A DNA stretch of 64,000 bases, taken from Engraulis encrasicolus (taxonomy: Eukaryota > Chordata > Actinopteri > Clupeiformes > Engraulidae). The notes below the pieces were generated by a model, which was given only the letters and a program-made list of their open reading frames with translations, did not search any database and was not told the DNA's origin. Both the position numbers and the translations under genes were made by a program. Shown here piece after piece: positions 23,530 through 53,890 of this stretch (within the stretch, counting starts at the first letter, position 1; the number at the start of each line of letters is the position of its first letter). The stretch lies in contig NC_085875.1 in assembly GCF_034702125.1 (NCBI RefSeq), positions 40,316,240 to 40,380,239 of the forward strand. The letters are read 5' to 3'.

Positions 23530-25540
23530 CTTCCAGGTTGCTTTGAGCCATTTTAGCAGTGAAGTTAAGTGGTCAGTGAAGGTAAGGTAGCTTGCCAACT
23601 GCAGTGCAGAAAATAACTAATACAAAGCTGTATAGCTAAAAAGTCCAAGTCTAAACGTATTGGTCTGAAATAATTGTTCCAAAGCCTGGAAGAATTGCTA
23701 AGTGAACTTTGATTTGTTTCAGCTTAATCACCTGTCAGATCTTGTTTTTGAATTAGGGTTGCAGTGCAGTAGAGGGGTCTTTTGTGGTTGCTTGCTACAC
23801 TGCAAGGAATTGAACCTCGTGCTACAAATGAGCAGTGCCAACCACCAGTGTATGCAGCAGCACCAAATGGACAGCCTTGCTGCATCGCATCTTGTGATAA
23901 ATTGCCATAAATTATAGTCAGGAGTCAAGACTAATGGGTATGAAAAAACTGCACTAGAACTTTTGCTACACTGTTAGGCCAACTATTTTGTCAGAGGCAA
24001 ACACTGCCATGTCACTATTATTAAGGCACTGTGTCTGATGTACATTAGCAAATCAGCAAGCAAATGCTGCTGCTGGACCCATGACTATAACTAGGCTATT
24101 TACTAATCTGAGCTCAGTCTAACCATACCATGAAACAGCCATCATTCAATTCTCATCTGAGAATCAATGAAAACTTATGAGCAAACAAAGTGTGTCAGTT
24201 GCTTCTTGTCACAGTAAATACACAGGAATTTAAACCGAGTACCTTCTCCATGGGAAATGCATATACATGTCAATGGTGTATTTCAAGTCAACAGAAAAAA
24301 ACATGGACTGAACATGTTCTGGACTACTGCTAAATTATCTCTATTGAACCAGTCTGTATTTGACACACAAATCTGTGTTCATCTCTCACAATGACCTTTC
24401 TAATTCGTCTTCAAAGTGAAGTAAGCAACTGCCTGTCATAACTTAAATCCGAAGAGGGAGAAGGGTCGCCCACATTGTTTACATTTCCCAACAGCAAATT
24501 ACACAAGGAAAGCACTGACTGATTGTAAAATGTCTCAAGCAAGTCGATAGGCCTACATACCCTCAATAGAAACTGTACAGTGTCCAATCCTTAAAACGTG
24601 ACATGATGTCGGTGAACTGAAATGAACAAATGGTGATCAGCTGCTGCTGGAGCATGTGAGTAGGCCTGTATGGTTCACAGTGGGGGTTGGAGTCAGGAGG
24701 CTCCCATTATGCTCAGCAACAACCACCTACAAGGCCATGTGGTAAAAATGCAGCCGAAACATGAAACCGACAATGCAGTTTGACAAAGTGACAACTGCAT
24801 AAAAACACAAGGATCACCTTATTTCAAGCAACCAAAACCAAGCAGGAGTTCATGGACATTAAAAGGAACCCTGTCAGAGATGGAATGGACATAAGCACGC
24901 TCCCATGTCTGAAAGATAATAATGTATAACTTCAGTTCACACCACGGAAATGTGGATGTGGGGAAATGTTTAACTTCCATCATCCCAATTACAAATTGAA
25001 TAGTAATTGAACCAACTACACCATAACGTTGAAGTATCGTTATACTTGGAAATAAAACCAATATATTTGATTAAAAACAGGTATCCTAAATATTAATCCA
25101 CAACAACCTCAACGTGCCCTCTCAGCACGGCACACACCACTGTCGTTTACTTCCCTCTTTCTTGTCTTCCGGTTACGTAATCACAAAGCCATTTCTGAGA
25201 GAAGGGTTTCTGACGTCCGAAAAAATAAAAAGGACGCCATTGCTCCACTTATAGCCTTCATCTGACCTTTTCTACATAGCGAGTCGACATTCTAATACAC
25301 CGCTCACGTCAAATACAAACGCACATGATGTGTGGTTATATTTGACGATTGTATCGCTACAGCTGTAAATGATACATGGCATGTCTACGGGCACCAACTT
25401 ACTGATCGTAGTGCTGTTGTCGTCGAGCCCGCGTTCGAAATGGAAAATAAATGCAATTAGAACAAAATGGCGTATGGCGACTACGACTAGACATGCGCAA
25501 CATGAAAAGGGGGCTATTTTTTCCCTTCTGATATGAATTC
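23530..25540. other. Intergenic region psma3-arid4a
   Basis: About 2 kb with no recognised gene or repeat. A possible minus-strand first exon with a consensus donor lies at its right end (25403-25490). Otherwise nothing stands out on either strand. Confidence 0.5.
25403..25490 (-). other. Possible divergent transcript 5' exon
   Basis: On the minus strand, sequence from a YY1-like AAAATGGCG (25466-25474, plus strand) and an NRF1-like ATGCGCAAC (25493-25501) runs into a perfect donor GTAAGT at 25402-25397. It could be the non-coding first exon of a transcript diverging from arid4a. No second exon was identified. Confidence 0.25.
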
Positions 25541-26990: not shown

Positions 26991-29900
26991 CTATCAACAT
27001 CCATCGAGCTGGACTCCCTCAAATAGCCATTACAATGAAGGTAAGTCCCTGAAACCTCTTAGTTGAAAAATACCAGTGTCGGCGACGCCTCTCTGGCTGA
27101 AGTCAGATGAGCTGCTGGTGGGGCACCTATTTATCAACAACACACGTGCTACTGTTTGCTATCTTTTACGACGGTTAACATAGGTGATGTAAGCTAGTAT
27201 TTGTTCAATCATGTCAAGAGTACATCTGTCTGTCCCAGTGAAGTTGGAAGGAGAAGTGGAAATGTTGTCGTGAGACCTTCCAAATTGCATTATGATAAAC
27301 GAAAAACACGAAGCAACTGCTGTTGCTGACCTACCTTTTGAAACATGCATGCATTTTTTGTCCTGCTTGTATGTGCAAGTCTGGTCAAGCGAGGCTGTTC
27401 ATTAAAAATTAACCTGGCATCTATTTATCTCATAGGCTTATTATTGGCCTGAAGTCTGTCTGCCTACCACTTGACAGTTTGCAGAACAGGAGTGTCTAGT
27501 GAAGAAGCGTAAATAGGCCAGCTACATCTGTCTTTTGAGACAACATTGTCATCATATCACAAGCATAATGCAGCAGCAGTTTTACTATAGTAGGCTCTTT
27601 GTTATTGAGGCATCTGTGGGATGATTGAGCTGTATGTACACCGCATCGCACCTTACAAAACATGCCTAAACAAGCATCTTCATCTGACAGTCAGTTACAA
27701 ACTAGACCAGGCAGTGGAAAAGACCCCGAATATTTCCCAACTTTCTATGATGCACCTTGTGTCCCTTGTAAGAGTCACTCAACCACATATCCGTGTCCAT
27801 GTCTTGATGCTAGCTTTGTCCAGAGTGGTCAAAGCTGACAATAGATAATCTGTGTTTCTCTTGCCTCTTTCTCCTTCAGGCAGCAGATGAGCCTGCCTAT
27901 CTGACTGTGGGAACTGATGTTAGTGCAAAGTACCGCGGTGCCTTTTGTGAGGCAAAAATTAAGACTGTCAAACGGATGGTCAAAGTTAAGGTAAGAGTGC
28001 CTCCACCAACATCAGAAGTACAGTAGGTAGCTGTTGTTGCTTTTGTGTACGGTCTACTAGGGCTACTGCTAGGGCTATATCACCATATTCTCAGCGTTTA
28101 GTTTGTGCAGAAATACATCCTCATGTCAAAGAACTGCTCTTGACTAGCATGTAAACAGTTCTCAGAATCCAAACGAAACACTGAGGCATCGTGGCAACCT
28201 GTATTTTAACCCAATCAGCACCAACTGTATTCAGAGGTGCAAACATTCCCTGTCTCAAGCCTCTGAGGAAAGTTTGGGGAAAGCATCAGCCTCCTAAACA
28301 GTAGTATTTAGTCATTCATAAGTGGCTGCATGTGAAGATATCAGACAGGGCTTGACTAACATGTCTGTGGTGACTCATGCGCCAGCTTGCTCCGCAGAGG
28401 AGTCATCCTTGTTTTGGCTCCAAGCCACAGCTCCTCTGCTCTTTGACACTGCTCCAAAGCATGTCTGCTGTCAATTGTGTCTTGTATGATGTCCGCCTGG
28501 CAATTTGACGCACAACTTCCACCGACAGTAAGAAAAGTGTTCTCTGCTGTTGCTGCCGATGCTGACGTCAATTACATCGGGCAGCTCGAATTGCATGACC
28601 CCTGCTACCAGGACTTTGTCCTCAGACTCTAGAAAATAGGCGTTTAAAGTCGTGGATTGGGTTTTATCACTGTTGTTTACAAAATCTGTAGGATCTCAAA
28701 CTGTCCGCTAGTTACGGTAGTTAGCTGTTATGCATACTGCCGTACCTTATGTATGTAGTAACTTTAGGTAGCCTTTTGGAAGAGAACCTTTCTCCATTAG
28801 TGTTTGTACTGTCATTGTTTACAAAAAATGTACCCATTCCAACACATGCAATTGTCCTTTCCCTTCCTTACGTTGGGTTCCCTGTTGTGTCGTGCATAAT
28901 GGGGTACCTGGCCTGGGGTACCAAGACGCTCCATTCTCCCTCACCCCTACTTGTGCAGTGGTGGTCCTCAGACTGTAGCTGTTAAATCTTTCACACGTCC
29001 AGCCAGGCGATGCTGTCGGCCAACCACGTGCTGCTCGGTGTGAGCAAGACGCTTACCCAGAAGCCTCTGGGTCGCAGACCACGGCGTGCGTGTGTGTTTG
29101 TGTTACACAACCAGATTACTTCACCTTGAATGAACCTCTGTATGCTCTCTCTATTGTTCAACACCCCCCCCCCTCTCTCTCTCTCAGGTGGTGCTTAAAG
29201 GAGACAGTACCTCCCAGGTTGTCCAGGATGACCAGGTGAAAGGGCCCCTCAGGGTGAGTTTTTCAAGTCAATCTTTCTCCAGAACGTCCAGGCTGCTTTT
29301 CACATCTCCTGAATGTTTTTTTGTTGTTTATACAAAAAAATCCCAGGTACAGCTAGTGAAGGATGCTTGAAAGCCACTGCTCGTCAGGGTTGTTGGTAGT
29401 CGGATGCATGAAGCTGTGTGTATGGCCAATTGGCTTCATTTATGCAGTTTGTTCCCCTCAGGGGGCCTTGGAAGATGCACTAGGTGTGTGTGTGTCCTGC
29501 TTGAAAGAGTTCCTGTCGTCTCTTGCGTTTTTGGCCATGATGAGCACCTCCCTCTGTCATCATAAGCTGGACAGGGTGAGAAACGCCAGTGGCAATGGTG
29601 CCGTTGCTTATAAGAGTATGTTGGTGAGTGGGACCTCCATTTTGGAATATTTTAGATTGGCTTCCTGTTGGGCCACAGATGAGGGAGCATGCTGTGTGTA
29701 ATTGCAGGTTACAGAGCCATTTAAAAAAAGTTATTTATTTCAGTAGCGTACTTGTTAAGTTGGTTGCTTCTGATTAGAGCTGACTTGCTGCAGCTACTGA
29801 AGGTTTTATGTTTGTGTGTGGAAAAAGTTACCACCAATTCAGCACAGCAGTCTACTTGTTCTTCAGCAGTAGTTAGTCGTTTCAGGGTTATACGATTTCA

Positions 29901-32900: not shown

Positions 32901-35900
32901 TCTTGTTCCTCCTTGTCTCCTAATGCCTCCTCTGTCGTCTTGTCTTTCTTTCTTTTCTTCTTCTGCTCCTACTTGTCCATATGCTCATTTTTCTTATGCT
33001 CTGGCTTTCCTTGTCCATCTTGTCCCTGTGTGTTGATTGTTTTGCACACATCTAGTTTTGCTGTACTTGGCATTGCTTTAGCCAGGATATCACCTACGTT
33101 TGTTTTGGGAACCTGTTTTTCTAGTTGATGTAATTTTTTTGAACGTCCTTTAATTATAGGCTGATTAATTTGCAGATCCAGAACTCTGCTTCCTTTACTG
33201 CTTTGCATACTAAAAGTGAATTCTTACTTAGTAGTGTTGCATTTACATGGACTTTCTATGTTTGCAAAGAAAACCTGTTTTTCTAGTTTTGTTGTCTTTG
33301 TCCAAATGTCCATTTACTTGAGACTTAAATGAAGCCATGGCGAGCATGCAGCGTTGCCTTGTGCAGATGACACGACGCCTGTACATTAGCTGTGTTGGGT
33401 GAACCACAGTCTATAGAGATGTGCTATTTTTGATTTGTTGAGCACAGTAGGCTGATGAAAGGTTGTGTGGAGGAGTGCTGCTATTAAGTATGCTTTTCTT
33501 CTGTCTGCTCCCCAAGGTCATATCGCCTAGCTGCAACGATGACCTCACAGTCAAAAAGGACCAATGTTTAGTGAGGTCCTTCGCCGATTCCAAGTTGTAA
33601 GTAGCTTTTTATCACTTTTTCAATGACTTCATCTTCTGTCGATCTGATATATCCAGCCTTGCTTTTAAACGACAATATGCTTCTTTTTACATGTCGTGAA
33701 AGTCAAGTGGGGTGCAAAATGTGTCATGTCTGTGCCCAAAAGCGGTGCGTTTTGACTGGGATCCATCTTAACGCCTTCTGTTTCTTCCCCTACCTCTCTT
33801 GCTTGTTTTCATAGCCACACCGTGGCGAGGAAGGACATCCATCAGCTAAACATTGACAGTATATCCAAATCCGAGTACTCATCAAAGAAAGGTAAGCCAT
33901 CGTTGGCCAGGTTCTCAAAGATTTGAGACATACTAATTACTTCAGAAGCATTGGAAGATGGATGATGCCAGAAAAAGCTTTAATTGTGCCCAACAGCAAG
34001 ATGGGGAATGCCAAGATTTGTGCCTGAGAGATGCTGATCTGCTGTAACCGTGTCATTCTGTCCTTACTCATCAGATGCAGAAATCATTCTCTCCATCAGC
34101 ATTTCTTGCGCCCCACAAAACATTTCAAGTGCTGTAATATGTGCACAGTTCAGCTCTGAAGTCAGCAGGAGCATTGTGAAATATGCTCCAAAAAGAGTCG
34201 GTTTTTGTGTTGTGTTTAGATCTTATTGCTCAGGCAATTCTGTATTATGTATCTGGCAAATGTGTTTTTTAAAGTTTTGCAACAAAAAGTAACAAATGCT
34301 TACATTCTTTGCTGTCAATCATGTCATGCAAAAACTTAATGTTTTCTACACATTCAAAATATGTGCAAAATCATTGAGTCAATGCCTGTACTTAGGGAAG
34401 TGTGCCCATACCACAGTTTGAGCTAGACTTGGTAAAGCTGACAACCTTTTGGGTGGAGAAATTTACACTGACCCACATTTCCATGCGCAGGGTTCGATGG
34501 CGCCATCCACTTCCTGAAGACGAAGGTGGTGCCAGAGAGCTGGAAGATGGACATGAGCGAGATCCTGGAGTCGTCCAGCAGTGATGAAGATGACGAGGAC
34601 GGTGACAAGGAGAGCGAGGAAGAGGTGAAGAGGAGGAGGGCTGTGGCCGACCAGGTGAGGGGACCTTGAGGCTCTGCTGCACAAACATGACGCAAACACA
34701 CTGGACCATTTAGCTGTTGGCACAAGAACTTCCTTGTTGATGTGTTGGAGGCTGGATGTGTTTGTTAGAACTATAGATGTTGGATGCTAACTAGGGGGCT
34801 ATTCCAAGAACATGGTTGAGTGATATTCCTGGCTAGGTTAACCTACAAGAAGTGCTAAACCTGACAATAGATAGCCCACAGGTGTCATCTGAGTAAGAAA
34901 ACCAGGACTTTAGGCCCTTCTATTGGATGATTTACCACCACCTCAAGGTGAACTTTACCTGCTTTACTACTGAGTCAGGTTCTTGGAATACTCCCCAGGT
35001 GACTCGGGCTCTGATGCCAGGCATGAAGGTGCCATATTGGACACACCTGAAAAGTGTTCCTTGTTCACACAGCTTCTATTCCTCATTAACGTGCTGGCGG
35101 GCCACACATGACTATTGCACTACATAAGATGTTAACGTAAAAGGCAACTTCGTACATGAAAAGCAGACGTGTTGGATCAAATTCAGAGGAACACAAGCTA
35201 CCCATCAATAACAGTGTATGGAGAGTGCTGGGTGACTTTTGCTTCTCATGTTTTCATCTTTCAAGAAAGCAGTAGAGAAATAGTAACTTGGTGGTGCACT
35301 GGACACAGTGTCTGCTACTCACGTCTGCAGTATCTGCTACTCACGCTAATATCTTCAGTGCCATTTTTTTCCTCTGTAACGTGTGGGAGGACCAGGTGTC
35401 CCTGTCTACTCCTCACCTGAGAAGTCGTGTTTATCTTTGAGTTGGAGGACTTTTGTTCCCCACTTAATTTGTTTTTGTGAACTCCAAATGGGAATGCATT
35501 GAGCCACTAGTAGCTCAACGACTCAGGTCTGCCTCTCACATGAGACTTATTGATCTCTGCTGAGGGCTTGTGCTGTTTCCTCACTTAAATTTGTCAATAT
35601 AGGGGTGCGTTCCTGAACTGCCACGAAAACCAGTAGCTAGTAATAGTGCCCACTTCACTTGAGAAGCTGTGTTCCTCATTTATTAGTTTGAGGGCTTGCA
35701 TTGAGGTCAAGCCTTAAGGTTGTCAATGTTGGACGGCTTTTGTCAACTCGTAAGAGAGGCAATAGACAGCGTATAGATTTGTGCTCATGACTAAAAAGCA
35801 CTGCTATGCTAGTGTGTTTGAAACCAGATTGCTAGGGTTTGCGCTCGACTCATGTCTGTCTTGTTTTCCTCCCAATACATACATTAGCACATGTGCTGGA

Positions 35901-38777
35901 AAGGAACCGCAAGAGTGTTTCAGTGAGATGTAAATGCAGCTTTTTTGCTAAATAAAGTAAGAGTTGTTTGCCAGCAGGGAGCCATCTAAGGCGAATGTGC
36001 CGTTAAGTTATAAGCAGTGTCCTCACAATATATATTATATATTTTCTGTGGCACTTGGCAGGCAGCATGTTTTCCAAGCCTTAGAATCCCTTTCGTGGTT
36101 GCTCATTTGTTTTGATGCATTCTGGGGCTGCATTCTAACGTGGTAGCGAGCTGTCGAGGCAGCCCTCCTCCAGCCCCTGAGCTTTTTCAGTTCACACGCT
36201 CAGCACTCATAGCCATCCACCCGCCAGCTCCACCAACCCCTCCCCTTTCCCCCTACCCCCACCCTCTGGCTGCTTCTCGCCGCAAAGCCATGTGAAGGCA
36301 TGGGAATCCCTAGCCCAGTCACTCAGAAGACCCCCTCCCCGACCCCAAGCAAGCCTACACCAAACCCCCTCAGCCAGCCCGGAATGTAAATACAGCCCCA
36401 GGCCCACAGGAGATAGATGATAAGCCCTCTCTCTTTACAGATTGACCGCCTCTTTCCCCCCCCCTCTTCTCTCCATTTCTATTTCACTTGTTCACTGTCC
36501 AAAAGCACCTTGATTGAGTCTCCTGACTGGTCTAACCGCATGTGGTGGGGGACACCCCTCCACTCCACCCCCCACTCCCTCGCCACCATTCAAATCTCTG
36601 CGCCAAACAATGCCCCATTCTTCCTGCTCCCCAACCGACTCGGACAAATGGCCATTTGTTTGGGTTTCTCTGACTTGGTTGCCGTGGCGACGGTGACTTC
36701 CTAAACTGAGGAGGAGGCAGGAGGCTGCAGGGATTGGACAATTGCCAAGGGGAGGCGTGGCCAATAAATACAGCCCAAGGGTTGGTCTAGTCCAGACTCT
36801 TCCCTCCATCTCGCTCTCTCTCTCACTCGCTCTTGCATACACACACGGAGGGGGAAGAGCTTTAGTTTTGACCCCCTCCCCTCCCCTTGCAGATATGTGG
36901 CTTGTGACAAACAGGCGCCAAGTGCGTTAGCTGCCTAGATGAGCATCGAGTGAAGTCAGGATGATAGAGCTGGGTATATACTGTACTAGTGCTCCAATGC
37001 GTCTCCTCTCGGGGTGCAGTGGGAGAGGTGGGGGTGTGACCTGAGTACAGGGGCTTTAGTAGACAGGAGCACGGGCAGTAGGATTATGCTGAGTAGCTCC
37101 ACTCCTGCGCTGAGTGCACATTGTGTACATTCTATACCCCCGGCAACACTCCTGCTTTGCTCTGTGCCATACATTGTTGTCTGCAATTTTTTTGTTGTTG
37201 CTCCGTTTTGGAAGCAATTAAGAAATGTTCCTATAGCACTTGTCATACTAGATTTCTGTGTTCCTGTCATTTTCAATGTTTGTAGTGTTTGTGTTGCAAA
37301 ATTATGACTAAATGGATGGGTATGAAGGGGGCCCTTTTTTGTCCTTTGACTTTGCCCTCCAATCCCACATGCCCACTATCTCCCTGCTGGATCTGTGCAA
37401 TATGATTTTGGAGCTAGCGCTATAGCTGCTTGCTCTGCTCTCTGTAACCATCTATCGCCTGCCTATTCCACAGTCACTGATGCAGTGAAGACTATGGCTC
37501 TGCACTTTAGCACCTGCAGTGTCGGCCCATTTATTTGCTTTTGGTAATTGGGAGTGGCACAGTGTGCCATGAGCGAAGGGGGTGAAGTTGGTTGCCCCCT
37601 TGGCAGAGTTGTTGGAAGAGGGGCTGTTAGGCCAGTGTTTATCAACTACTTGTCCCGCTGCGCCACTCTGCTCTTCTCTGCTCCTCTCAATGCTTTTTGC
37701 CCGTCTATTAGGAGCAGCAGCAGTTGGAGCTGTAGGAATTCCAGCTGTCCTGTGCGCCATGTAATCCCACCTCGCTGAGGGCAGGACATGCATGATCAGT
37801 GAGAAACAAGACTGTCGAGAGCAGCCACTGCCCACTTTAGTGAAGTGTGTGTGTGCGCAATCTGATTTTATTCCATTTGGAGAGTAAATGGACTTGTGCA
37901 GTTTGTCTTTTTGTAGAAGTGTCCAATGGTTGTCTTCCAGGGGGAGGGTCTCAAAATGATGATGCCTGAGAATGGTTTCGCTTATGGGCTGATGTCTGGT
38001 GATGCTACGATTCTCTTGGCTATCTGATTACCTCTCCTTCCCCCTAAATGACTGCTCCTAAGCACTGTGGCTGACTGTCTCGGTCTGATCAACAGACCAT
38101 GTGCTCTTCTTGACATGCGTTTGACTAAAGCTAATTGAAGTCATGGAGTCTGCAGCAAAGGCTCTTACTGCTGCACACATGGGTTCACATACACTGGACA
38201 TTTAGAGGAATTGCTTTTTAGTAACTTGATTTTGTGTGTGTGTCTGTTTTGTAGCCTGACGACGAGCCTGACCCAGAAGAGAGAGACCACTTCCTACAAC
38301 AGCTCTACAAGTTCATGGAGGACAGAGGTGAGTCAATCCTCTCTCTGCATTAACCAATAAAAACATCTGTACACCTGCCACTTCCTACACATATACACTG
38401 ACTTTTCCACTACACTTTTCCATGGAGAGTCCTAGTATGATGATGTCTGAGAATGGTTTCGCTTTATGGGCTGAAATATGGTGATGCCACGATTCTCTTG
38501 GCTATCTGATTAACTCCCTACAAATGACTAAAAACACTGAATTCAAAAAACTTTGTTCTCACTTCTGAGAACCAACATTTTAATACACTACAGGGCTCCA
38601 GACTAACTTTTTGCACTGGTTGCACTGGTGCGCCTAAAAATTTTTTTTAGGTGCACCAGCACAAAATTTAGGTGCACTCAACTGTTTTCACCACCCCATA
38701 CACACACGCACCTCAGCTTTAAAAAATAATAATTAAAATTAATAACAGTAGCAATAATAATAGCAACAATAATAGAA

Positions 38778-38837
<60 letters not shown>

Positions 38838-39033
38838 GATGGATGTATGATTTTTTTTTAACAAACCCTGCTAAAAATGTCATGATTTTTAAAATCATTA
38901 GACACAAATAGCCTAGCCTATGTTTACAGTGGAATCTGAGGTGAATTGGGTTTTGTCTATTTCCCCGTTTTTGAGCGCTCTCCCTCTGCATAATGATTGT
39001 GGTGTCTTAGCAAGCGCTACGAACAGACACGAC

Positions 39034-39083
<50 letters not shown>

Positions 39084-42000
39084 GAACGATGCCTTGCCGA
39101 CTGATAGGCAGTATGTAGCCTGCCCTAGTCGCTATCAAAAAAACTCTCACAGAAGTCCCGACAGACTAGCGCGTCACCTGTTGTTTGGCCAGCTCTGCAC
39201 GCGGCTGAAACGGGCAATTATCCGCACCCGTCTGCGTTTTTGTGTGGTAATGTTTAATATCCGCTCAAGCCATTTAGTTTTTCCCCGCGATTGTGACTCT
39301 CGTGTTTAAAATATCCTCAAGTCATTTTGCTGTTTTTACCGTGATTGTAACTCTCTCGTCCGTTGCAAAACTCGCCTGGTTGAGAACACAAAACTCGCTG
39401 GCACATGTGAACTCGGATAGTTGAGCGAAGTCGAACATTCTATTCTGAAACGTCGGGAGAAAGCTACCGGTGGTTCAGCGGAGTTGAAGGAATGACCGCG
39501 TTTTATTGTGTGATGATGGGCCACTACTGTAGAATGACTATTACTTTTATGTCCATTAAAACGGTTGTTTGGTAATTGATTTTGTTGATGGCTGGTCGCA
39601 CCGGTGCGCCTAAAAATATTTTTTAGGCGCACCATTGAAAAAAATGGGCGCATATGAGACCAAATTGGTCGCACTCTGGAGCCCTGCACTAGATTTCTAA
39701 ACGCCAAACAATTTCCTTCATAAAAGTTTTCTACTCCTCTCTGATTGGGCCCACTGCACACAGCTGTCTTGGTGACTGTCTGCAGAGATTTTGGCTGGGA
39801 TATTGCGAAGAGCCCCATGACATTATTGATCTCTGTTCTCCTTTCCCTGCAGGGACTCCAATAAACAAGCCTCCCGTGCTGGGCTACAAGGATCTCAACC
39901 TTTTCAGTCTCTTCAGGCTGGTGCATCAGCACGGTGGCTGTGACAACGTAAGAGCCTTTTCTTTTCTCACTTGTGTGTTCTGTCTTTTGTGTGGTTACCA
40001 CTTTTTTTTTCCAGGTCTCTTTTTTTTCTCATTTGTGCTCATTCTGTTTTGGGTTTGTGTATTATTCTTTTGTGTGAACCCCTCTAGCAGCTCCTCTTTT
40101 CTCTGCTTATTGTGTTGCCCTAATGTGTGGCTCCCCCTCCCTCTCCTCACCTCACCCCCCTCATAACCACAAAAGGATAACACGGAGCCGTAGCCTTGTG
40201 CTGGCGTAGAATTTCTGCACTCCATATTTAGATTACTCACTTTGTGTGCGCCTGTGTTCTCAGTTTCTCTCATTAGCTGTGTGACAACCATTCGTTCTTG
40301 TACTTGTTGACGTGCATCACACTCCATGCTGCCAGGCTCTGACGTCAGAGAGTAGCTTTTCATCACACTGTTTTGCCCGTCAGGGCAGGCTGTGAGTCCG
40401 TGCGTGCTCACACGTACAGTACTTATAACACAGACGACTGATGCAAAAAGGAAATCCTTTTTTTCTGGTTTGGAAATCGTTCAGAAGTGTGTTATGGCTG
40501 ATGGTTATCTAGCACATGTAAAATGTTTTTGCTGATTTGTATCTGGCTTGAAGAAAGCCAAGCTTATATCTGCTGTGGTGTAATCGCAGTAGTGTATGCC
40601 GTTTGAGTGAAGACGTGACTTTTCCTCAAACACTGTAGCTTTTCATGTTTCGTTCCCCCTCATCATGTTCCAGTCTAATGGATTACCTACAAAAGCAGTA
40701 ATTGTCAGACAACAGAATTTACTCTGTTAAATGTTCTTGGTCTTTGCTTTGGCTTAAATAGCTCATTTTGTTGTACTAATGCCAGAGGTTCTTACTCAAT
40801 CTTGTGCATGTTTTTTTTGGTACAGATTGAAAGCGGCTCTGTGTGGAAACAGATCTACATGGACCTGGGAATTCCAGTCCTCAATTCTGCTGCCTCCTAC
40901 AATGTCAAGACTGCCTACAGAAAGTAAGTTTGTGTGTGTTCCTCTTTAAAATGCAAAGTCTTATCATCTTTATGGTGTCTGCCCAAGTTATTAGAAGTGT
41001 TTTTACTGGATGCTTGCCATTCATGTTTAAAACCTGATGCAAATTTACAAGCAATACATCGTTGTAGAATGAAAATGTAGTAAAGCACGGTTGCCAAGGT
41101 TACCAACAGTTTTGTTGGCACACCAATGGGTGGTTTAGAGACCTTAAAAAACCGTACAAATACAAATGAGTAAACAAACATGCCAAGTCAAGGCAGTGCA
41201 GTGTGGAGGTGGCCTTGGACTTTGCTGCTACTGCTGTTGTTGTTGGTTTGTGCCATGCTAAGGCCTCTGTTGAGTGGCGTGGCGTGGTGTGCTGTGCTGT
41301 GTTGCTGTGAGGTGTGGTGAATGGCACAGAGCATTGAGCCTGGCTGGCTGATTGGCTGGCATTAACCTCGGCAGGCCAGGCAGGCGGGACCAGCTGACTC
41401 TGTGGTCGCCTGCAGGAAGCGTGGCCGTGCCTTGACAAGCTAAGCTTAGCCTTAGCGGGGGAGGTCTGCACAGTGTGGTAACAGCCAGCTGGGTTAGGAG
41501 GACTATAATAAAACAACACGCAAACAAACGAACATGATGATGCCTGAGAATGGTTTCGCTTATTGGACTGATGTTTCTGTGATGCCACGATTCTCTTGGC
41601 TATCTGATTCGGCTGTTGTTTTTTAACCCTGATTGAAATATTATATTATAGGTCAGGGATTCTTAACCTTTTTGACGTCGAGGCCCATTTTTTCCAGTGC
41701 ACAGTGACCCGGGGCCCATAGTACCCATGTATATATTATTATATTATATTATATTATATTATATAAGGCTATATATTATATGATATTGCATTATATTACA
41801 TATAACATTATATTACACCATATAATACAATATAATGATAATATAATATAGGTGTTTCTCCCACAAGGGATAGCCCTATATTAATTAATGTTAATGTTAA
41901 TCTAATTTAATCTCCCTCATCAAATCTACTCACAGTTTAACAAGACAGTCATTCACATATTTGAATGCCTTTCTGACAGCTCAAAGCTTGCTTGACAGCT

Positions 42001-45000
42001 CTTGACTTGCGCTTTGTAATCAATATGCTGGTTATAAATTCAAGACGCTTTTCTAAGTGGAAACGCAACGCGGGAACAGAAGTTCCACATCCTGACGGAA
42101 AACTTTCCAGTAGGCTATCAAGCAAAATTCGTAAAAGCACTGTCATGGTGGGGACACTTGGACAAGGATAAGGGATACCTTTTTATTTTGAGTAGCCTGA
42201 CCGTTAAACACTAACCGCTAAAACGTGAGGATTTTAGGAGAAGACGTCGCCAAATCAGCTGGGAACCGGAACCGGTTGGTAATTTCTCATTTTACCGAAC
42301 ACCAGTAATAACTATCCCACTGCAAAGTGCGTTTGCGATCACCGGCTGTGTTACTTCTTGTTCGTAATGAATCGCCCTCAAACAAGAACAAACAACGGGG
42401 TGTTGCATTGCGTTATGACAGTGTTGCGTTTGACTGAAAAGACACACACTAGTAACTAGCGGTCTCACGGCCCATCGCGGCCCACTGGTGTGAAATTGAA
42501 AGTTGTCTGCGGCCCAGGAGGTTGTGAGCGCGGCCCAACTTTGGTCCGCGGCCCTATGGTTAAGAATCCCTGTTATAGGTGAAAAGATGTTTTTGCCTTA
42601 CTTAACCTGAAATCCGGACCGTTCAGCATGACTTCTTCATGGTTCATGACTGTATTTTGTAAATGTCAAGTCATCCATTTCTTGTAACATGTCAGGGCTC
42701 CTGGTAATGACATCGACATCTGCTATGACTCAGTTCAAGTGGTTTCATGGGATCCCCATCATCTTCATACCTGCAATGAAGGTGATGGGGACCCCCATTC
42801 AAAACATTTGTATTTAGGAAATTATGTCTGTGGACTTTTGACAATGGTTTCCATTTTACGAAAGAAAGACTGTGAGCTCTTACTGACCTGTGTTGCCACA
42901 TGTCTCTGTTGCCAGGTACCTGTATGGGTTTGAGGAGTACTGCCGGTCTGCTGGCATCACCTTCCGCACCGTCCACCACAATGACCCGCGCCCCGTTGTG
43001 TCGGCCAGCGAGCCCCAGAAGAGCTCCGTCAAGCAGGAGCCGGTCGACACCAGGGAGCCTTCGGAGCCTCCAGCCATCACCGACAAGCCAGCCGCCCACG
43101 ATGACGACTCTGAGAACGAGAGCGAAAAGGCCCACAAAGGAACCTCGCCGAGGGTAAGCGAGCCATATGCTTCCATGAAACGTTGCGTTAACACATGGGA
43201 ATCTTTTCACTCGATTTTGTCGATTTAATCTTACATTTATTTGCCCATGTCTTTTTTTTTTTTAAAGCACACATCTAAAGAGAGATTGCTTCTTTGTGGA
43301 GGTACTGCTGATGTTGGGATCAAGCCCTGCTGAAAATGTACAGCATACGGTTTGTTTGCAACTGGGTGATTTCTATTGGACTAAGACATTTTTGTTTCTG
43401 GTTCTAGCCACGTTGGTCCAAAATATTGCAGCATTTGCTCCTTTTTGAGCCCAGATCCCTCTTGATGATTGTAACACAGCTCCAGATTTTTACTCTCGTC
43501 AAACTGCTTGTTCACTTAAGATGGTCTTTGTTAAATTCAATGTTTTGCTTTGGCTTATTAGCCAAGTGTTTGTTTTGAGGGATTACACTGCAGCGGGCGT
43601 GAGGAGTTGTGCAAATATTGGTCGTCTGGAGTGGTCGAGTTGTCGTTGAGTCGTCCCTCTTCAAGCCCCATTGTGGAATCTGCAGATGAGCGAGAGGCCG
43701 CCTAGTACCTCAACTTGCTTAGCTAGAGTAATACAGAGTGCTGAGGGTTTTGCAACATCAGGACACTTTGAGCTTGTATTTGCCCCATTAACCGACCCAC
43801 ATTGTGGGCACTTTGGAAAGCAACGTCTTCCTTCCACAAGATGTAGAGATAAGCTCAGACACTTGAGTAATTGTTGTTGCGTAGCTTACAAATATGAAGC
43901 ACAGTGTTTTGTTTTGTTCCTGTTAGTTCAGAGTACTGTGCTGTCTCTGATTTGAAACTACCTTTTCGGCAAACGGGAACAACAACGTGATGATGCTTGA
44001 GAATGGTTTCGCTTTCTTGACTGATGTCTTGTGATGCCACACTTCTCTTGGCTGTCTGATTAGTTCCCACTGCCATTTTATTGTGTTCTCCCCTTTCTCT
44101 TCTTGAACTTTGCACCTCAGGTCCATTACCTTTTTAATAGTTTTCGTTTTGTTTTGTTACCTTTCATAGTAGTACATAAGTCAAAGTGTCACCTATTATG
44201 CTCTGCTTCTGTTTGCATGGCTGCACATGTGTATTATGTGAAGCAGCACAGGTTACCTATGTGTGAGAGAGTGAGTGAATGAATGAATGTGTTCGTACAT
44301 GCAGAGCACTTCACACAAGTTCCCTTCTTGTGTGTTTGTTGTTTTTGTAAGCTGAAAATGGTTATTGTGCCTCTGCAGCTGAATCTTTGCCCTCTTTCTG
44401 AGATGAGCATGTGTGAACATGCAGTGAGCGACCAAACTGTTAAACTGTGCCTCATCATGAAGGCGCTCTGTGATTTTCTGCGGAAGCCTTTTAATGATGG
44501 CTTCTCTGTTAACACACTTGGAAGGGAAAGGGCAATACAGAAATAGAACGGGGTTCTAATTTGGGACAAATCAATTGGGGCAAAACGTTACAAACTTGAG
44601 CAGCGTCTTAGCTGATCTGTTCCTCTCCCTCTGGTTCTGTGCTTGCCTGGTTGTGTACACCTGCAAGTTTCGGTTCCCTCTTGACTAACATCCTTAATAA
44701 TGTTTTGTGCACATGCTTTTCCTTTTTCCTGAGGAGGTAACATACCTTCAAAGTTGTCATACTACACAATTTTTTGGCTCCAACAGTGGTCATGCAATTG
44801 GTCAAAATCATCAAATGGTTGTGTTGAAATCCTTGTTTCTCTCCACTGAATTGAGCAAGAACTCTGTCACTTTTTTTCTCGTGTGTGTGTGTGTCGGAAT
44901 TATTCCATTTAAGTGTTACTGTAAGTTCATTTTCATATTAGAATGTCCCTGTTCTTATCTGTGCAGTGCGGTTTCAAGCCAGCTCATGGCTGCTCTTGTT

Positions 45001-48000
45001 GTCTCCGTGTGTAGGGGCGGCGGCGCTGTGCGGTGACTCCGGTGAAGGTGGAGCAGAAGGATCCTCCACGGCTGCAGAAGGAGGAGAAGGAGACCACCCC
45101 ACAGCAGCGGAGAAAAGAAGAGAAGGAAACCCCTCCCCAGCAGCGGAGAAAGGAGGAGAAGGAAACCCCTCCCCAGCAGCGGAGAAAGGAGGAGAAGGAA
45201 ACCCCTCCCCAGCAGCGGAGAAAGGAGGAGAAGGAAACCCCTCCCCAGCAGCGGAGAAAGGAGGAGAAGGAGACAACCCCACAGCAGAGGAGGAAGGAGG
45301 AGAGGGAGACCACCCCACAGCAGCGGAGGAAGGAGGAGAGGGAGACCACCCCACAGCAGAGGAGGAAAGAGGAGAGGGAAACTACGCCACAGCAGAGGAG
45401 GAAAGAGGAGAGGGAAACCACCCCACAGCAGCGACGGAAGGAGGAGCGGGAGACCACCCCACAGCAGCGGAGGAAAGAGGAGAGGGACCGCGAACGGGAG
45501 AGGGAGTGGGAGCGTGAACGGGAGCGGGAGAGGGAGGCCAGTGAGGAGGAGCATAGGGAGCATCAGGAGGAGGAGGAGGAGGAGGATGACGAGGAGGATG
45601 ATGGCCGGCCAGGGCCCCCCGGCAAGAGACGCAGCCGACGCTTCGAGGAGTCAGACAGAGAGTCGGAAGATGAGGACGCAGAGGAGGAGGAGGAGGAAGA
45701 GGAGGACGACGATGAGGATGACGATGGAGACACCTCCAGAACTCGCGAGAGGTAAGTGGTCCTTATTACTTACATGCGGTCAGAGTCTCACTGCTACAAA
45801 TGGCTGGAATACACTTGTGGTTCCCAGTTTCTTGGATTGTTTGAGTCATTGTTGATTGGAGTTGGTCAAAATATATACAGCCTTTTCATGCCAATAAATG
45901 TAGGTCTACACACATGAGTGTGAAGCATCAGATGAATGAAAGGGGTGTTCTTTCGCAGGAAATAGAAATAAAATGCAGACTTTCACTTCGATCACTGTGT
46001 GAAAACTGAAAGCCATACACTAATTAAAGACCCTTCTTTCCATACACTTAGCCTTAATTGTTCTGCCACTGGTATTTGGCCTTGAAAATGGATATGATGG
46101 TTGTAGATGACATCAATATACATGCATAGCGCATGACTTGGACAGTACAGTGGAGACGTGAAAGTGATTGCAGCACTCCACCATTTCACATAAGTCAGTG
46201 TTGTCTCATTAATGCAGTCAGTGGTTTCCTGCTTAAGTGATAGATCTGTCTTCCTCTCGACCATTAAGCCCTGTTGGTTACGACAGTCTTATAGACTTGT
46301 CTTGTGTTATTGCCTCAGATCCAATAAAGTTGACTGTACTACAGTGTGATTGCAGTTGGCCACTGTCATGTCAAAAGACATGCAGCTCTCAAAGCATTCT
46401 TTAGCAACTGAGCTGGTTCACACGTCAGTAAATACCATATGCAGAGTAAACAAACTGTTTGGAAGTAAACAAATGGGGTTTTATTGCAATACTACGCCCT
46501 TAAAATCTCTAATAAAAGCTAATCCATAATATAAAAAATGTGGTCTTGAAATGTTGGGTTCTTAATTCTGTAAAAAAAATGTTTACGCCCACAGATCTGG
46601 TTTTGTCAGTGTGGTTAACCTGTGGTTCTTTGATATCTGTATAGCTTTGAAGTGCGTCTGTAAGCAAGCTTGTGGTGTTGACTGAACTGCACAGCAAATT
46701 CATTTGGCTCATTATAAACTTATTTATTTTTAAACTATTGGGTGCAAATTGGGCATCAAAGTGGGCTGTTTCTCTGAGTAATCAATCAAAAGGGGGGTTA
46801 TGCTAAGCTGCAGAGGCTGAATATGATGATGCCTGAGAATGGTTTCGCTTTATCAGCTGATTCTTAGTGATGCCACGATTCTCTTGGCTATCTGATTCAC
46901 CCCTGAAGAACAACCCCTTCTCTTCACTTAGATTACACTCACCTGTGTCTTGATCTTTTGTTTTGACTTCAAACGTTTGATTTACCAATGTAAATGTTGT
47001 ATTTGTGTGGGAGTCTTTGACATTTCCATTTCTGTAGTATGGAAAGATTCTGTGCACTTTGCAAGGCATTAGTTACCAACACGGAACCATACATTGTCTG
47101 TGAATCTAGAATGCACAGAAGTTCTATTCGGACGTCCCAAGGGAGGAGTCCTTTTGTGAATGGGGAAACCTGAGCCACTTGAGCACAGCTGACGGGTGTG
47201 TGATTGTCCCTCCTCTGCCTGCAGGGGGGAGAACGAGGAGGGCGGCGATGATGATGTCACGGGCACCAAGGTGCGGGTGAAGTACGGGCGGGGCAAGACT
47301 CAGAAGATCTATGAGGCCAACATCAAGAACACAGACACCGAGACAGACGACGGAGAGGTGCTGTACCTGGTGCACTACTACGGCTGGAACGTTCGGTAAG
47401 TTCACAAGCCAAAGGCAGCTTTCTTGTCAATTTCTTAAACAAATGTAACTTAAAATTTCTTGTAATGTACATATTATGTCTCCTGTGTAGACAAAGACGG
47501 CACAAACATAAAAGTGCAAAGCAAGACGATATTGAGTGAAATGTGCTGGATGGTCTTTTAGCAGGTTGACGGGGTTGAAGGATCTCAGGTCTGTTGGCTG
47601 AAATCGAGTGTGGGATAGGAGGCCTCAATCCACATTTGTTAGTGGATATTGTCCTTGGAAATCATTTGATAATGTTAAGGGTAGAATTACTTCTGCTTTT
47701 TGCTCAGTTTCCTTTAAAAGATCCGTACGTGCACGTGTTGGCTGTATTTAGATTTTTAGACCCAGCAGTTTTGGTGGTATTATTGTGGCTGTAGCTTATG
47801 AAATAAAACATGCAAACGTCACCCAAATGTCCAGCGCATTAGTAATCGTAGAGCAGTCTTGTGATTTGGGGTGTTGTGAGGTATTGAGTCTGCAGTGCAT
47901 TGTGTACAGTAGTGGAGGGAACCTTATGCTGGCTGCAGAGAGGGGGTGGAGTGGTGTAGTATGCCCTTGGCCTCAGGATGTAATCAGATAGCAACCAGAT

Positions 48001-51000
48001 ACAGCAGGCTGTCTGAGACGCAAACATCTTAACCTTATTTACCTGCTGTACATGGCCTCCCGTGACCCACATCCACTTGCACTGCTCATGAGCACTTCCA
48101 TTAGGCGTACTGTACAAGTGTGTCTGCAAAGAGGCATGGAAACAGTTATGGAAATCGGAATGCTCTCATGAAAACACAGGGTTTGGAATTCTTCGTTTGT
48201 GTGTGTGTGTGTTTTCTATCCATGTAAATTGGCGTGGATGATTGACAGAACTCCTCAGACATGTCACCATGGGGATGGTGTGTCCATGACAGATGGGACT
48301 TGACAGTGGATGACAGTGGAAAGTGGACAGTGAAAGAATGAGTTGAGCATGATGAGCCAATGCTTTTAGAAAGCATGTAAATCCTCACAGGTGAGAAGCT
48401 ACTGATGTCTGTTTCTCTCTCTCTCTGTCTCTTTCTGCCTCTCTGTGTCTCTCTCTCAGCTATGACGAGTGGGTGAAAGCGGACAGGATAATATGGCCTG
48501 TTGACAAAGGAGGAACAAAACGGAAACCGAAAAAGAAAGTAAAGGTGGGTGTTTTGTCGTCGTCGGTTACAATTCCCATGTCCATTAGGGGCCTCTTGTC
48601 AGAAACTCGAACAAGACCTCTGAGGTTTAGACTCCTCCCCTGCAGGAACAAACATGATGATACCAGAGAACGGTTTCGCTTTCTTCCACTGATGTCTCCC
48701 TGATGTCACGATTCTCTTGGCTATCTGATCTGTCTCTGATGTGGCTGTTTGAGTACAGTTGCATCTACTACGGCCATCTTTTGCCTCCCTGCCTTGGATT
48801 TATAGCCGGGTTTCTTCTTAATGGCTTTCCCAGACTGCTATAAAAGAGGAGATTATATTTCTACTTTTGCTACTAAGAGATGACGTGAGTAATTGTATGT
48901 AAATGTGTTGGGTGCCATCTGGCACTGTAGTATTAAGTAGCTGAATTAGGACGAGAACTATCCACGAAATGATGTCCGGTTACACTTGCTACTGTTAAAG
49001 AATGCCAAATGGCAATATTTAAAGTTTTATAGTGTCAGTAGTAGTAGGTATAGTATTCAGTCTGTTATTTTTCCTATTGTTATAATTGCAAAATGTAGTT
49101 TTTACTGTTGTAATTTTAGTGAAACTGTTTGGTACCACCTGCCTTAACCCTGTCTTGATCTAACCTCCTCTCCATGTTACCCCCCTTTCTACCCGAACAC
49201 CACTGTGCAGAATAAAGAGGATGGGGAAAAGGAGGAGGACAAGCAGGCAAAGATGGGCAGTGGTACGAAGAGGGGCCGGCCCCCAATCAAGACCACACCC
49301 CCCAGTGCCTCCCGCAGTGCCTCCAAGACGCCCAGCAACGAGAGCCGCTCCGGCAGCAAGAGCTCCCGCCAGTCCGACCCCTCGGCCCTGCCCAACGGAG
49401 AGGGTAAGACCCACCAGGCACTGCATTATTGGTTGAAATGAATTGGTATGTTGTTCAGAATGATCAGCATTTTGCCCATGGTGCTGTCCAACGGAGAGGG
49501 TTAAGGCCCCCTGTGCACCTTATAAAAAGCACTGCAATTTTTGTTGTGGTTGTTGGGAAGTCTGTAATTTGTCAATACAAATGTTTTCATCGTGTTCTCA
49601 AGGTGTTCAAATCGGTTGTCTGGGCATATGCCCAATATTCACAAACAGATATTTGTTAAATGCTTTGTTCGCACTACTATGGCTGTTATGCTGTCCAGTG
49701 TAGAGGAGTAAGGCCCACTGCAGGGACAATCCTATTGCATTGATGGTGAAAGTTATCAACGGAAGTGCGGAGTACAGTTGGGATATGGGCACCAGTTTAG
49801 GCACAATTTGCCAATGGGTGGAATGGCTAATTGTCCAAGATGCCCGACAGTTTTAACATCTATCGCAGATCTGAAAAGGTGACCTGGGCAGAGAGTTGTG
49901 TTAACGCCAAGCTGCAGACGCTGAATATGATGATGCCTGAGAATGGTTTCGCTTTATCAGCTGATACTTTGTGATGCCACGATTCTCTTGGCTATCTGAT
50001 TCACTCCAGAATATAAGGCCCTTTCAAACACTCAAAAACCCTCTGTCTGCCTTTCAGTCTGTATGATTTTTCTGACATAGAGTAAGTACTATGGCAATGT
50101 GCATGAACTGCCTTCTTTAGTATGATTTCCTGGTCTCTGTCCTGGTTTCTTGCAAACTATTAAGCAGTGGAATCATCACCCTGGTGTCAAGGTCAAATTA
50201 TGCTGCGCCTGTGTGGATAGGGGGGTCTTGCAGGGTGCTGGGGGATCTCATTTTAAAGAATTAAGAGCTTTGTGGTGACTAATTGGATTTTCAAGGTCTT
50301 GCTGCGTTCATACAAAAGGCAGTGTAAACATTTATGACATGAGGAAAAGGTAGGCCTGGGCGATATGAGAAACACATAAGATTTTGATTATTTCTTCCCC
50401 AAATTTTCGATTTCGATTTTAATCACGATATGAATGAAATCACATTTTTAAAAAAAATGTTTCCGGGGGAGGGGGGCATGAAGCGCATGCGACATACACA
50501 AGTTTATATTGTATATACAATATAGCCTACAAAGTATCTATAAAGGATTAAAATGAGAGATGAATGCCTAAAGCAAATATCTTTAACCACAAGAGGGATA
50601 ACTGTCTAAAACACATATCCTTAACAAGACCAAAGGTGCAATTGCCTATAGCAGGGGTAGCCTACTCAATTCAAAGTCCACCCGAGTCCCCCAGTTTTTC
50701 CAAATTCCTCCCAATTACACACTCACACCCACAGCAGGTATTTAGTTTCCATTGACAGAATGGGACAAAAAACTCTCATACAGGGCCTCTATTTTCCTGG
50801 AGCACTGTGGGGTGATGTGCCTGCCTTGTTCTCATTGCCACCCTTAAGTATTTTTTTTTTTTAATGACATACGATTATCTGTTAGCCTTTATTTGCAGAC
50901 TGCATTCATAAAGATTTATTTCTTAGTGAGAAAACCAATAAGCCTGAAGATAACACTTTTAAAACAAATGTTGCTTATTATGACCTTGTTTATGCAGCTC

Positions 51001-53890
51001 TCACATGCATAATGAGAATCAGATGCAATAATATGGACCCAACAAAGAGGACATCTCAGGTTTTGTCAACAAGAAAATGGCACATTTGATGCAATGTTGA
51101 TTAAATGCAACAGCCGTTAATAAATCGTCAAGTTGCTCATAACTTTGTTTGTAGTCTTAAGAGGGGCTTAGCATTCCAAACAAACTATTTGGGGACTGTT
51201 TAAAGGTGTGAAAAGCACCATCAAGCAATTCGTTTTTTATTACCACTAGTTAGCTGCCAGCAGAGCTCAAACACAATTTGCCTTCATTTGTGTTAGCAAC
51301 TAGCTAGCAGCTACAGCTACTGCTAAACCAATTCGAAGTCCTAACACTGTTTGCAATCAAATGTGGGCCATTACTTTCAAAAACAAGGCATAGAGAACTT
51401 TGTGAGGTAGACTACAAGGGAAGGACAGTATCAGAGCCTGTAAATAAATTATTTACAATCTCTGATACCACCCTCGTATTCACTACTGTCTGGAGCCAGC
51501 AGTGACTGGCAAAGACAGAGAATCAGACTGAGGGGGCGGGGCATGGCACCCTTCTTCCTAGCGCCTGGGGCGCGATTTCGAAATAAGAGTACATGGCGCG
51601 ATCGGACAAAAAGGAAAAAAAAAATGTTTTGAATGCGCATCAAACGTCTAATTTATAATCGGAGAAAATTGACCTCGCGATTAAAATTGAAATCGAAAAA
51701 TCGTCCAGGCCTAGGAAAAGGTGAAGTGCTCTGCTGGACATACAGCCTTAATGCTGACAAAGTACAGTAGGCTGTATATGTTAAAACAGCAGGAGTGATT
51801 CAGGTCGAAGGAATGACTAACTTCATGGGAATGAGGTACAACAGTTTGGCAGCAACCAAGTAGATAAAGATCTCCCCTAATAGTTCTCCTATCACTTTTA
51901 CTGAGCTCTGTCTGAACGTACGTAGTTATATTCCTAAGTGTATATCTTGCTTTCCCATAAAAGATGTGATTTCCTATAGCCTAACCCTCCTAATGTAGCA
52001 AGAGTGCAGCTTTGTAGGTCGTGTTTGAAAATGCTTGGTGGATATCATAAACAAGTGTCATGATGTATGAGTTACGTAAGGTTTTTCATGCCAAGCCTCG
52101 ACTCTGTTCTCATTTTGCGGCTTCTGCCAGTGTTGGGTCTCCCCCCGCCTCGTCATCTCGGGCACTATACTGTGAAGATGGTTTCACAGTATTCTTTGGG
52201 GATCAGTAGTGTTTGAGTTTGTGACACTCTGGCTCGTCTCTGTGATGGCGAGATGGCTTGTTATGCTGTCACGTAGGCTGAGACGACTTCCCTTTTCAGA
52301 CCGTTTACAGCTCCAGGCCTTTTTATTAGAATACCATGAAAAAGTTGATTTATTTCCATAATTCCATCAATAATGTTAAACTGTCATGGATTTTAGATTC
52401 ATGGCCCAGTTTTTGAACTATTCCAATCATTATTTTTTTTCTTTTTATATACGTTGGCCTTCCAGCTCAAAAAACCCATGAATTGGGGAATTCGCATTAT
52501 TAGAATATTGTTATAAAATCACATTTTTCTTCATCAAAATTCGGGTCACATTAAATCAGTTGGAATTTGGTACTTTCTACATAACATGCAATGGTCAATA
52601 CTTGGTTAGGACATTCTCTGTCTTCATAATGGCCATGATGCGTTTAACATTGAAGTCAATGGCAAAAACAGTGCATGGGTGTTATGGAAGCCCAGATATC
52701 CTTGATGCTTTGCTGTCAGCTGTTCTTGTTTGTTGACCTGGTACCCCACACTTCACTCTTCAATATACCCTGTAGATTTCCATGCCACGTTTTGGCGCTA
52801 ACTCACCAGTTTAATTCTAAATAACCAGAAATGAAACCCCATTGAAAATGAATGGAGTTTAATTTCTGTTGAGTTAGAATTAAACTGGTGAGTTAACACC
52901 AAAACGTGGCATGGAAATCTTCGGGTATATTGAAGAGGGAAGTGTGGGGCACCAGGTCAACAAACAAGAACAGCTGACAGCAAAGCATCAAGGATATCTG
53001 GGCTTCCATAACACCCATGCACTGTTTTTGCCATTGACTTCAATGTTAAACACATCATGGCCATTATGAAGACAGAGAATGTCCTAACCAAGTATTGACC
53101 ATTGCATGTTATGTAGAAAGTACCAAATTTCAACTGATTTAATGTGACCCGAATTTTGATGAAGAAAAATGTGATTTTATAACAATATTCTAATAATGCG
53201 AATTCCCCAATTCATGGGTTTTTTGAGCTGGAAGGCCAACGTATATAAAAAGAAAAAAAATAATGATTGGAATAGTTCAAAAACTGGGCCATGAATCTAC
53301 AATCCATGACAGTTTAACATTATTGATGGAATTATGGAAATAAATCAACTTTTTCATGGTATTCTAATAAAAAGGCCTGGAGCTGTATATAACAGTGCGG
53401 CGTCTATTGTCTGTCTGCCCTCTGCGGTCTTAAGAGTGGCTTGTACAGATGCTCAAGTCCCCAGACAAGAGCTGAAACTCTTTACACAAGGTTGCAACAT
53501 GATTGTGGTTATTTAGTGTCAAACATGTTAAAGTTGCATTTTTTTGTTTTGTTTAGTGTAAATGTTTCATCACAACATGGTGTGCTATATATATTAATGG
53601 CCACCGATGTTGGATGGCAACAATGCTGGCTAACCCTAAAGTTCCTACTCCTAAATAACACATAGTACCTGCAAGATTATGGCATCTTTAATCTTTATTG
53701 CTTACTTGTTGTATGCAATACATATGAAGGCCTTGGCCTACTGTATATTGTTCCCTGGAAGGTTGCATGAGTGATGTTGTTAACACTCGCCTGTTCTCTT
53801 TAACAGTGACTCCCCGCAGACGCACGAGGAGGACTTCTGGGATGTACGACTCAGACAGAGGGTCCAATGGTATGTAGTGCATCTTCATGA

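Follow-up and report, generated by a model that had tools for sequence, protein, structure and literature searches.

Seven predicted SNORD53/SNORD92-type box C/D snoRNA genes in introns of a probable arid4a gene of Engraulis encrasicolus

The 64,000 nucleotides (nt) of the Engraulis encrasicolus contig NC_085875.1 analyzed here, hereafter called the window, contain a short sequence block that recurs in the introns of a gene which is very probably arid4a. Judging from its sequence features, we are highly confident that this block represents seven intron-encoded genes for box C/D small nucleolar RNAs (snoRNAs) of the SNORD53/SNORD92 family, with a predicted guide role on 28S ribosomal RNA (rRNA). 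Since a target pattern that combines two conserved antisense elements of these RNAs matches eukaryotic large-subunit (LSU) rRNA, the copies very probably act as functional guides of 2'-O-methylation at the 28S site linked to SNORD53/SNORD92.

Seven copies and the parts they share

The sequences of the copies, their family, their intronic location, their conservation and their potential to pair with rRNA can all be read directly from the DNA. A search of the window with the Rfam model SNORD53_SNORD92 (RF00325; gathering score, 46 bits), which an earlier note on this DNA had proposed as a check, gave seven matches of 48.6 to 63.5 bits, all of them on the + (coding) strand and aligned over model positions 1 to 78 (Table 1). 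No eighth match was found in the whole window at a permissive expectation value (E) of ≤0.5. A sequence model made from the seven copies plus 20-nt flanks, run with filters off on both strands of the window, scored the copies at 84.4 to 104.6 bits and the next of 28 listed matches at 6.8 bits (E 0.2); given that the copies are the training set of this model, only the score gap to the next match is informative. The same model revealed no decayed or intermediate copy in the 64 kb. Together, the seven matches above the gathering score and the wide gap below them bear out the recurring block of about 75 nt that the earlier note had described.

The guide sequence TTCTCTTGGCT has seven exact matches in the window, one per copy. 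Allowing up to two mismatches, it has 35 sites where 23.7 are expected, a number reached in 1 of 100 shuffles, and taken alone at this laxity the guide is weak evidence. Further afield, the snoRNA sequence had no match in viral contigs, and copy 5, used as the sole query in distant mode, had none in a plasmid collection.

Table 1. Coordinates in the window of the seven predicted snoRNA copies and their host gene.
Feature	Position	Strand	Box C to box D	Intron	RF00325 score (bits)	Remark
Copy 1, SNORD53/92	37951-38031	+	37956-38027	34655-38254	53.5	
Copy 2, SNORD53/92	38432-38513	+	38437-38509	38328-39852	58.5	
Copy 3, SNORD53/92	41529-41611	+	41534-41607	40924-42915	61.2	
Copy 4, SNORD53/92	43982-44063	+	43987-44059	43154-45014	60.3	
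Copy 5, SNORD53/92	46818-46899	+	46823-46895	45752-47224	63.5	highest score of the seven
Copy 6, SNORD53/92	48649-48732	+	48654-48728	48545-49210	48.6	barely above the gathering score
Copy 7, SNORD53/92	49922-50003	+	49927-49999	49404-53806	61.7	
Host gene, very probably arid4a	27871-57709	+				exon model, ARID4A-named homologues, tblastn of fish proteins

From the first base of box C to the last base of box D, the copies measure 72 to 75 nt, box C/D snoRNAs having a typical span of about 60 to 80 nt. As had been claimed for every copy, all seven keep an RTGATGA box C, CTGA at both D' and D, a C' box with a TGATG core, and the full guide. To express this by alignment column, with gapped columns counted as variable, boxes set by their canonical definition and antisense elements by their complementarity to rRNA, 39 of the 41 columns in boxes C, D', C' and D and the two antisense elements are invariant, compared to 12 of 34 in the remaining core and 2 of 65 in the flanks. 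This agrees with the selective conservation of functional parts noted before. The corresponding Fisher p value for boxes and antisense elements versus other core columns, 2.4e-8, is a guide only, since the alignment had already been inspected when the elements were marked off.

Pairwise identity across the C-to-D core ranges from 79 to 97%, with copies 5 and 7 the closest pair (97%) and copy 6 the most diverged member (79 to 85% to the other six). Outside the core, 20 of the 21 copy pairs show a gapped identity of 31 to 57% in 25-nt flanks, and for 20 of 21 pairs local alignment of 200-nt flanks did not exceed the best of 60 shuffles (the upstream flanks of copies 1 and 2 tied with it). Only copies 5 and 7 have an upstream flank in common, which extends over 21 nt (when 25-nt flanks are compared, 84% and 68%). 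With the flanks of 20 of 21 pairs no better than shuffled sequence, the conserved unit is the RNA itself.

Predicted pairing with 28S rRNA

Each RNA carries two elements complementary to rRNA: TTCTCTTGGCT before box D and a second conserved antisense element, TGGTTTCGCT, upstream of D', which is absent from the earlier note. We composed a target pattern from the reverse complements of both elements, with 0 to 8 free bases between them and two positions of the guide target left open to either purine. This pattern had no match in viral contigs and 11 matches in a prokaryote genome collection, three of which (L003, L005 and L006) are eukaryotic LSU rRNA according to RF02543; the other eight had no LSU match. 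The same three are the only ones whose guide target can pair at all of its bases, G-U pairs allowed, the other eight placing an A opposite a guide C. As an aside, these three eukaryotic LSU rRNAs lie in contigs that had been binned as bacterial.

In all three rRNAs the layout is AGCGAAACCA-C-AGCCAAGGGAA, with exactly one base between the two targets. Calculated with the elements of copy 5 only (the guide being identical in all seven copies), the duplex energies are -19.4 kcal/mol for the guide region and -15.7 kcal/mol for the second element. As the 5' element in the snoRNA pairs with the 5' segment in the rRNA, there would be two separate duplexes instead of a single uninterrupted helix. Counted upstream from box D, position five is a G and stands opposite the first C of AGCC, which probably corresponds to C3848 of human 28S rRNA; its neighbour A3846 has been reported as a site as well. 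The reported spacing of A3846 and C3848, two apart, fits the AGC. According to PMC8522698, SNORD53 and SNORD92 have overlapping 28S interactions at A3846 and C3848, with additional pairing possibly needed, and both sites are termed hypomethylated there. In PMC9941101, Am3846 appears under SNORD92, with a level of 0.80 in SH-SY5Y cells.

As for expression, processing, methylation and dosage, we infer the following course. Each RNA would be freed from its spliced intron, trimmed on either side of boxes C and D to about 75 to 80 nt, and assembled with the common C/D proteins, fibrillarin and NOP58 among them. Its guide, next to box D, would then pair with 28S rRNA at AGCCAAGGGAA; the base predicted to be 2'-O-methylated is the first C of AGCC, which lies across from position five upstream of box D. 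Meanwhile, UGGUUUCGCU would pair with the rRNA bases just upstream. At 5 to 8 bases from box D', this segment is too distant to guide by the usual rule, and it probably serves as an accessory clamp. Several copies within one transcript may raise both dose and redundancy.

Intron placement, external stems and competing explanations

The copies are in sense orientation, and each occupies an intron of its own within a run of nine consecutive introns (34655-38254 to 49404-53806), seven of which are thereby filled. Along this block, two occupied introns are followed by an empty one (39948-40825), three occupied ones, another empty one (47396-48459) and a final two that are occupied. The earlier note had placed the copies in introns 11, 12, 14, 15, 16, 18 and 19, which is the same occupancy pattern; numbering in our model would be one lower, but its 5' exons are incompletely modelled. 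That no other intron holds a copy, as also stated there, is true of the whole window at the sensitivity of RF00325 (E ≤0.5) and the copy-derived model. The chance that seven length-weighted placements all fall into different introns is 0.127 for all 19 introns and 0.015 for the nine-intron block, a block singled out post hoc. In vertebrates, snoRNAs are usually arranged one to an intron. A general scan for C/D features (box C, D', box D and a stem of ≤-4 kcal/mol in 10-nt flanks) matched copies 3 and 5 only; having passed over the other five copies, it says nothing about other snoRNAs in other introns.

Two of the occupied introns contain inverted sequences. In the intron of copy 7, two 465-nt arms that are 99% complementary and separated by 152 nt form an inverted repeat at 52306-53387. 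This repeat resembles a palindromic mobile element, and its centre gives sub-threshold matches to microRNA families on both strands. In the intron of copy 2, the segment 38582-39695 has inverted ends, with arms of 21 and 38 nt that lie about 1 kb from each other and are 81% and 87% complementary, and is perhaps an insertion that pushed copy 2 away from its 3' splice site.

The sequences flanking the copies provide partial support in the form of external stems. When flanks were re-paired among copies, 15 of 5040 permutations were as good in duplex energy as the native pairing, and the native partner was the best of the seven for copies 1, 3 and 4 only. With 25-nt flanks, copies 1, 3, 4 and 5 fell below 4% of approximate dinucleotide shuffles; specifically, their stems of -22.5, -11.2, -16.5 and -9.4 kcal/mol were matched or undercut by 2.4%, 3.8%, 1.2% and 1.4% of shuffles, respectively, the stem of copy 3 not being significant at 15 or 20 nt.

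Several observations weigh against seven working guides. External stems of copies 2, 6 and 7 are no better than shuffles at 25-nt flanks, and at 15 or 20 nt only two of the seven copies (4 and 5) fall below 5% of shuffles. The copies lie 223 to 3803 nt from the 3' splice site, in excess of the 70 to 80 nt commonly cited as optimal for C/D snoRNAs. Six of the seven copies have an A, two bases from box D, where the Rfam consensus has a G, creating an A-C mismatch beside the guide duplex. The rRNA used for comparison belongs to eukaryotes that contaminate bacterial bins and not to E. encrasicolus, and the target pattern was written with the 28S segment in mind, so the test was not blind.

Alternatively, only some copies may work. 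The others, copy 6 first and perhaps 2 and 7, would then be duplicates, either recent or in decay, that persist by chance or serve as a reservoir, a possibility that we take seriously while leaning somewhat away from it. Copy 6, at 48.6 bits against a cut-off of 46, deviates from the other six within the accessory element and beside the C' box, and it shares with copies 2 and 7 an external stem that is not beyond shuffles. Moreover, only about one-third of annotated snoRNAs are predicted to be expressed per vertebrate genome, and the abundance of snoRNAs from one host often differs drastically (PMC10234308). Yet all seven copies keep C, D', D and the full guide, whereas 20 of 21 flank pairs have diverged, and the retention of boxes and guide despite diverged flanks requires that every copy be under selection or that gene conversion be frequent.

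We regard two other readings as far less probable. A role chiefly in cis, in the splicing or the stability of the arid4a pre-mRNA rather than on rRNA, would account for seven structured elements within one gene, and cis roles of intronic snoRNAs have been reviewed (PMC11028025). Against this highly improbable alternative, both rRNA antisense elements are among the best-conserved parts and the copies lie at distances to the 5' splice site as different as 104 and 3296 nt, the extremes of the range. Similarly, the fact that the copies have only an RNA-sized unit in common could point to a dispersed retroposed repeat, that is, a snoRNA pseudogene family without function here. Target-site duplications and A-tails, the signature of retroposition, were looked for at all seven copies and not found: flanking direct repeats do not exceed chance (the best, 8 nt at copy 4, is reached by 6% of random places), and none of the seven is followed by a 3' A-run longer than 5. 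In addition, all seven copies are in sense orientation in introns of one gene, with none elsewhere in the window, and their conservation is confined to functional parts, which makes this origin extremely improbable.

The preferred reading, a family of intron-encoded guides, has precedents in principle: this snoRNA family itself, changes of host and multi-copy families outside mammals are already known, and what is distinctive here is the arid4a host together with seven copies. All seven match RF00325 over model positions 1 to 78 and by its score threshold belong with SNORD53, SNORD53B and SNORD92, whose host in human is WDR43. The host differs, arid4a here as opposed to WDR43 in mammals, but host identity does not count among the sequence criteria for this family. 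Several copies per host are likewise found in human, with three expressed members in a common host (PMC8178906), compared to seven here, six of which have the A-C mismatch next to the guide. A gene table in PMC3443222 lists mouse Snord92 and Snord53 after Wdr43. SNORD87 is also a C/D family with multiple copies in non-mammals (four in Xenopus, four in zebrafish, one in human; PMC3349704), yet it is another family with another target and has fewer copies than the seven here. A snoRNA in an intron of zebrafish nanog, a gene for a gene-regulatory protein, is conserved among teleosts and illustrates that regulator genes can be hosts; in contrast to the copies studied here, it is a newly annotated snoRNA with one host, not a known family across many introns (main text of PMC6954239). 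As snoRNAs sit in different introns and hosts in different vertebrates, with placental mammals trending to low copy number (PMC3349704), the surprise voiced in the earlier note was somewhat overstated. Apart from this and the overlooked second antisense element, its interpretation stands with regard to the box C/D family, the kinship with SNORD53/SNORD92, the arid4a host and selection on functional parts; the relocation from WDR43 that it raised is no more than a hypothesis.

No mention of ARID4A as a snoRNA host was found in the literature searched, which was covered by titles, abstracts and selected passages, and arid4 is not among the 88 zebrafish snoRNA host genes in the main text of PMC6954239. 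Automatic Rfam-based annotation may already mark the seven loci. A further-reaching proposal, which we consider unlikely, is that the SNORD53/92 family has moved wholly out of wdr43 and spread through arid4a introns, with transcription of a chromatin regulator setting methylation at the 28S site. If true, the move from wdr43 to arid4a would link chromatin state to ribosome make-up. In any case, the locus offers a clear vertebrate case of a conserved rRNA target combined with an unusual host and many copies, of use for work on the movement of snoRNAs between introns and on whether the level of rRNA methylation is set by copy number. Since the target is among incompletely methylated sites, a species with seven copies would be a natural dosage test.

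The host gene and its surroundings

The host gene is very probably arid4a, in line with the earlier note and based on ARID4A-named homologues, structure matches and domains. Our model, with AG and GT imposed at all 19 introns, comprises 20 frame-consistent exons at 29188-57709. A further upstream exon at about 27871-27993 was indicated by tblastn with fish proteins, and there is a 3' exon near 62600, with the conserved C-terminal stretch at about 62.6 kb. The N-terminal 442 residues contain RBB1NT and ARID domains and a later 149-residue piece a Tudor-knot.

Among the matches listed, the best 120 of 153, three ARID4A-named proteins (P0001, P0003 and P0005) are 67 to 69% identical at 88 to 99% coverage, and ARID4A-named matches of partial coverage (27 to 63%) reach 79 to 84%; a partial ARID4A-named protein (P0032) is 55% identical at 95% coverage. 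Vertebrate ARID4B-named matches in the same list are 55 to 61% identical at 77 to 94% coverage, with one short match (P0109) of 73% over 23%. By structure, ARID4A ranks first for the chromobarrel and for the RBB1NT-ARID part, the list for the latter containing no ARID4B structure of that part. For the N-terminal Tudor part, a longer ARID4B construct (181 bits) scores above a shorter ARID4A construct (130 bits).

Upstream of the host, exons at about 7.9 to 18.3 kb match the proteasome part of a Caranx protein that runs on into ARID4-type sequence. They probably belong to psma3, which we take to be the neighbour of ARID4A in human. Between these exons and arid4a, a match to mascRNA-menRNA (RF01684) lies on the - strand at 23796-23852, with 53.5 bits against a gathering score of 42.5. 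The MALAT1 triple helix consists of an A-rich tract and a U-rich element; neither was seen by eye upstream of this match, and ARAGORN called no tRNA at it. Finally, an arid4a coding exon contains a tandem array at 45077-45487 (36-base unit, 11.4 copies, 90% matches), which translates to repeats some 12 residues long that carry the motif ETxPQQRR.

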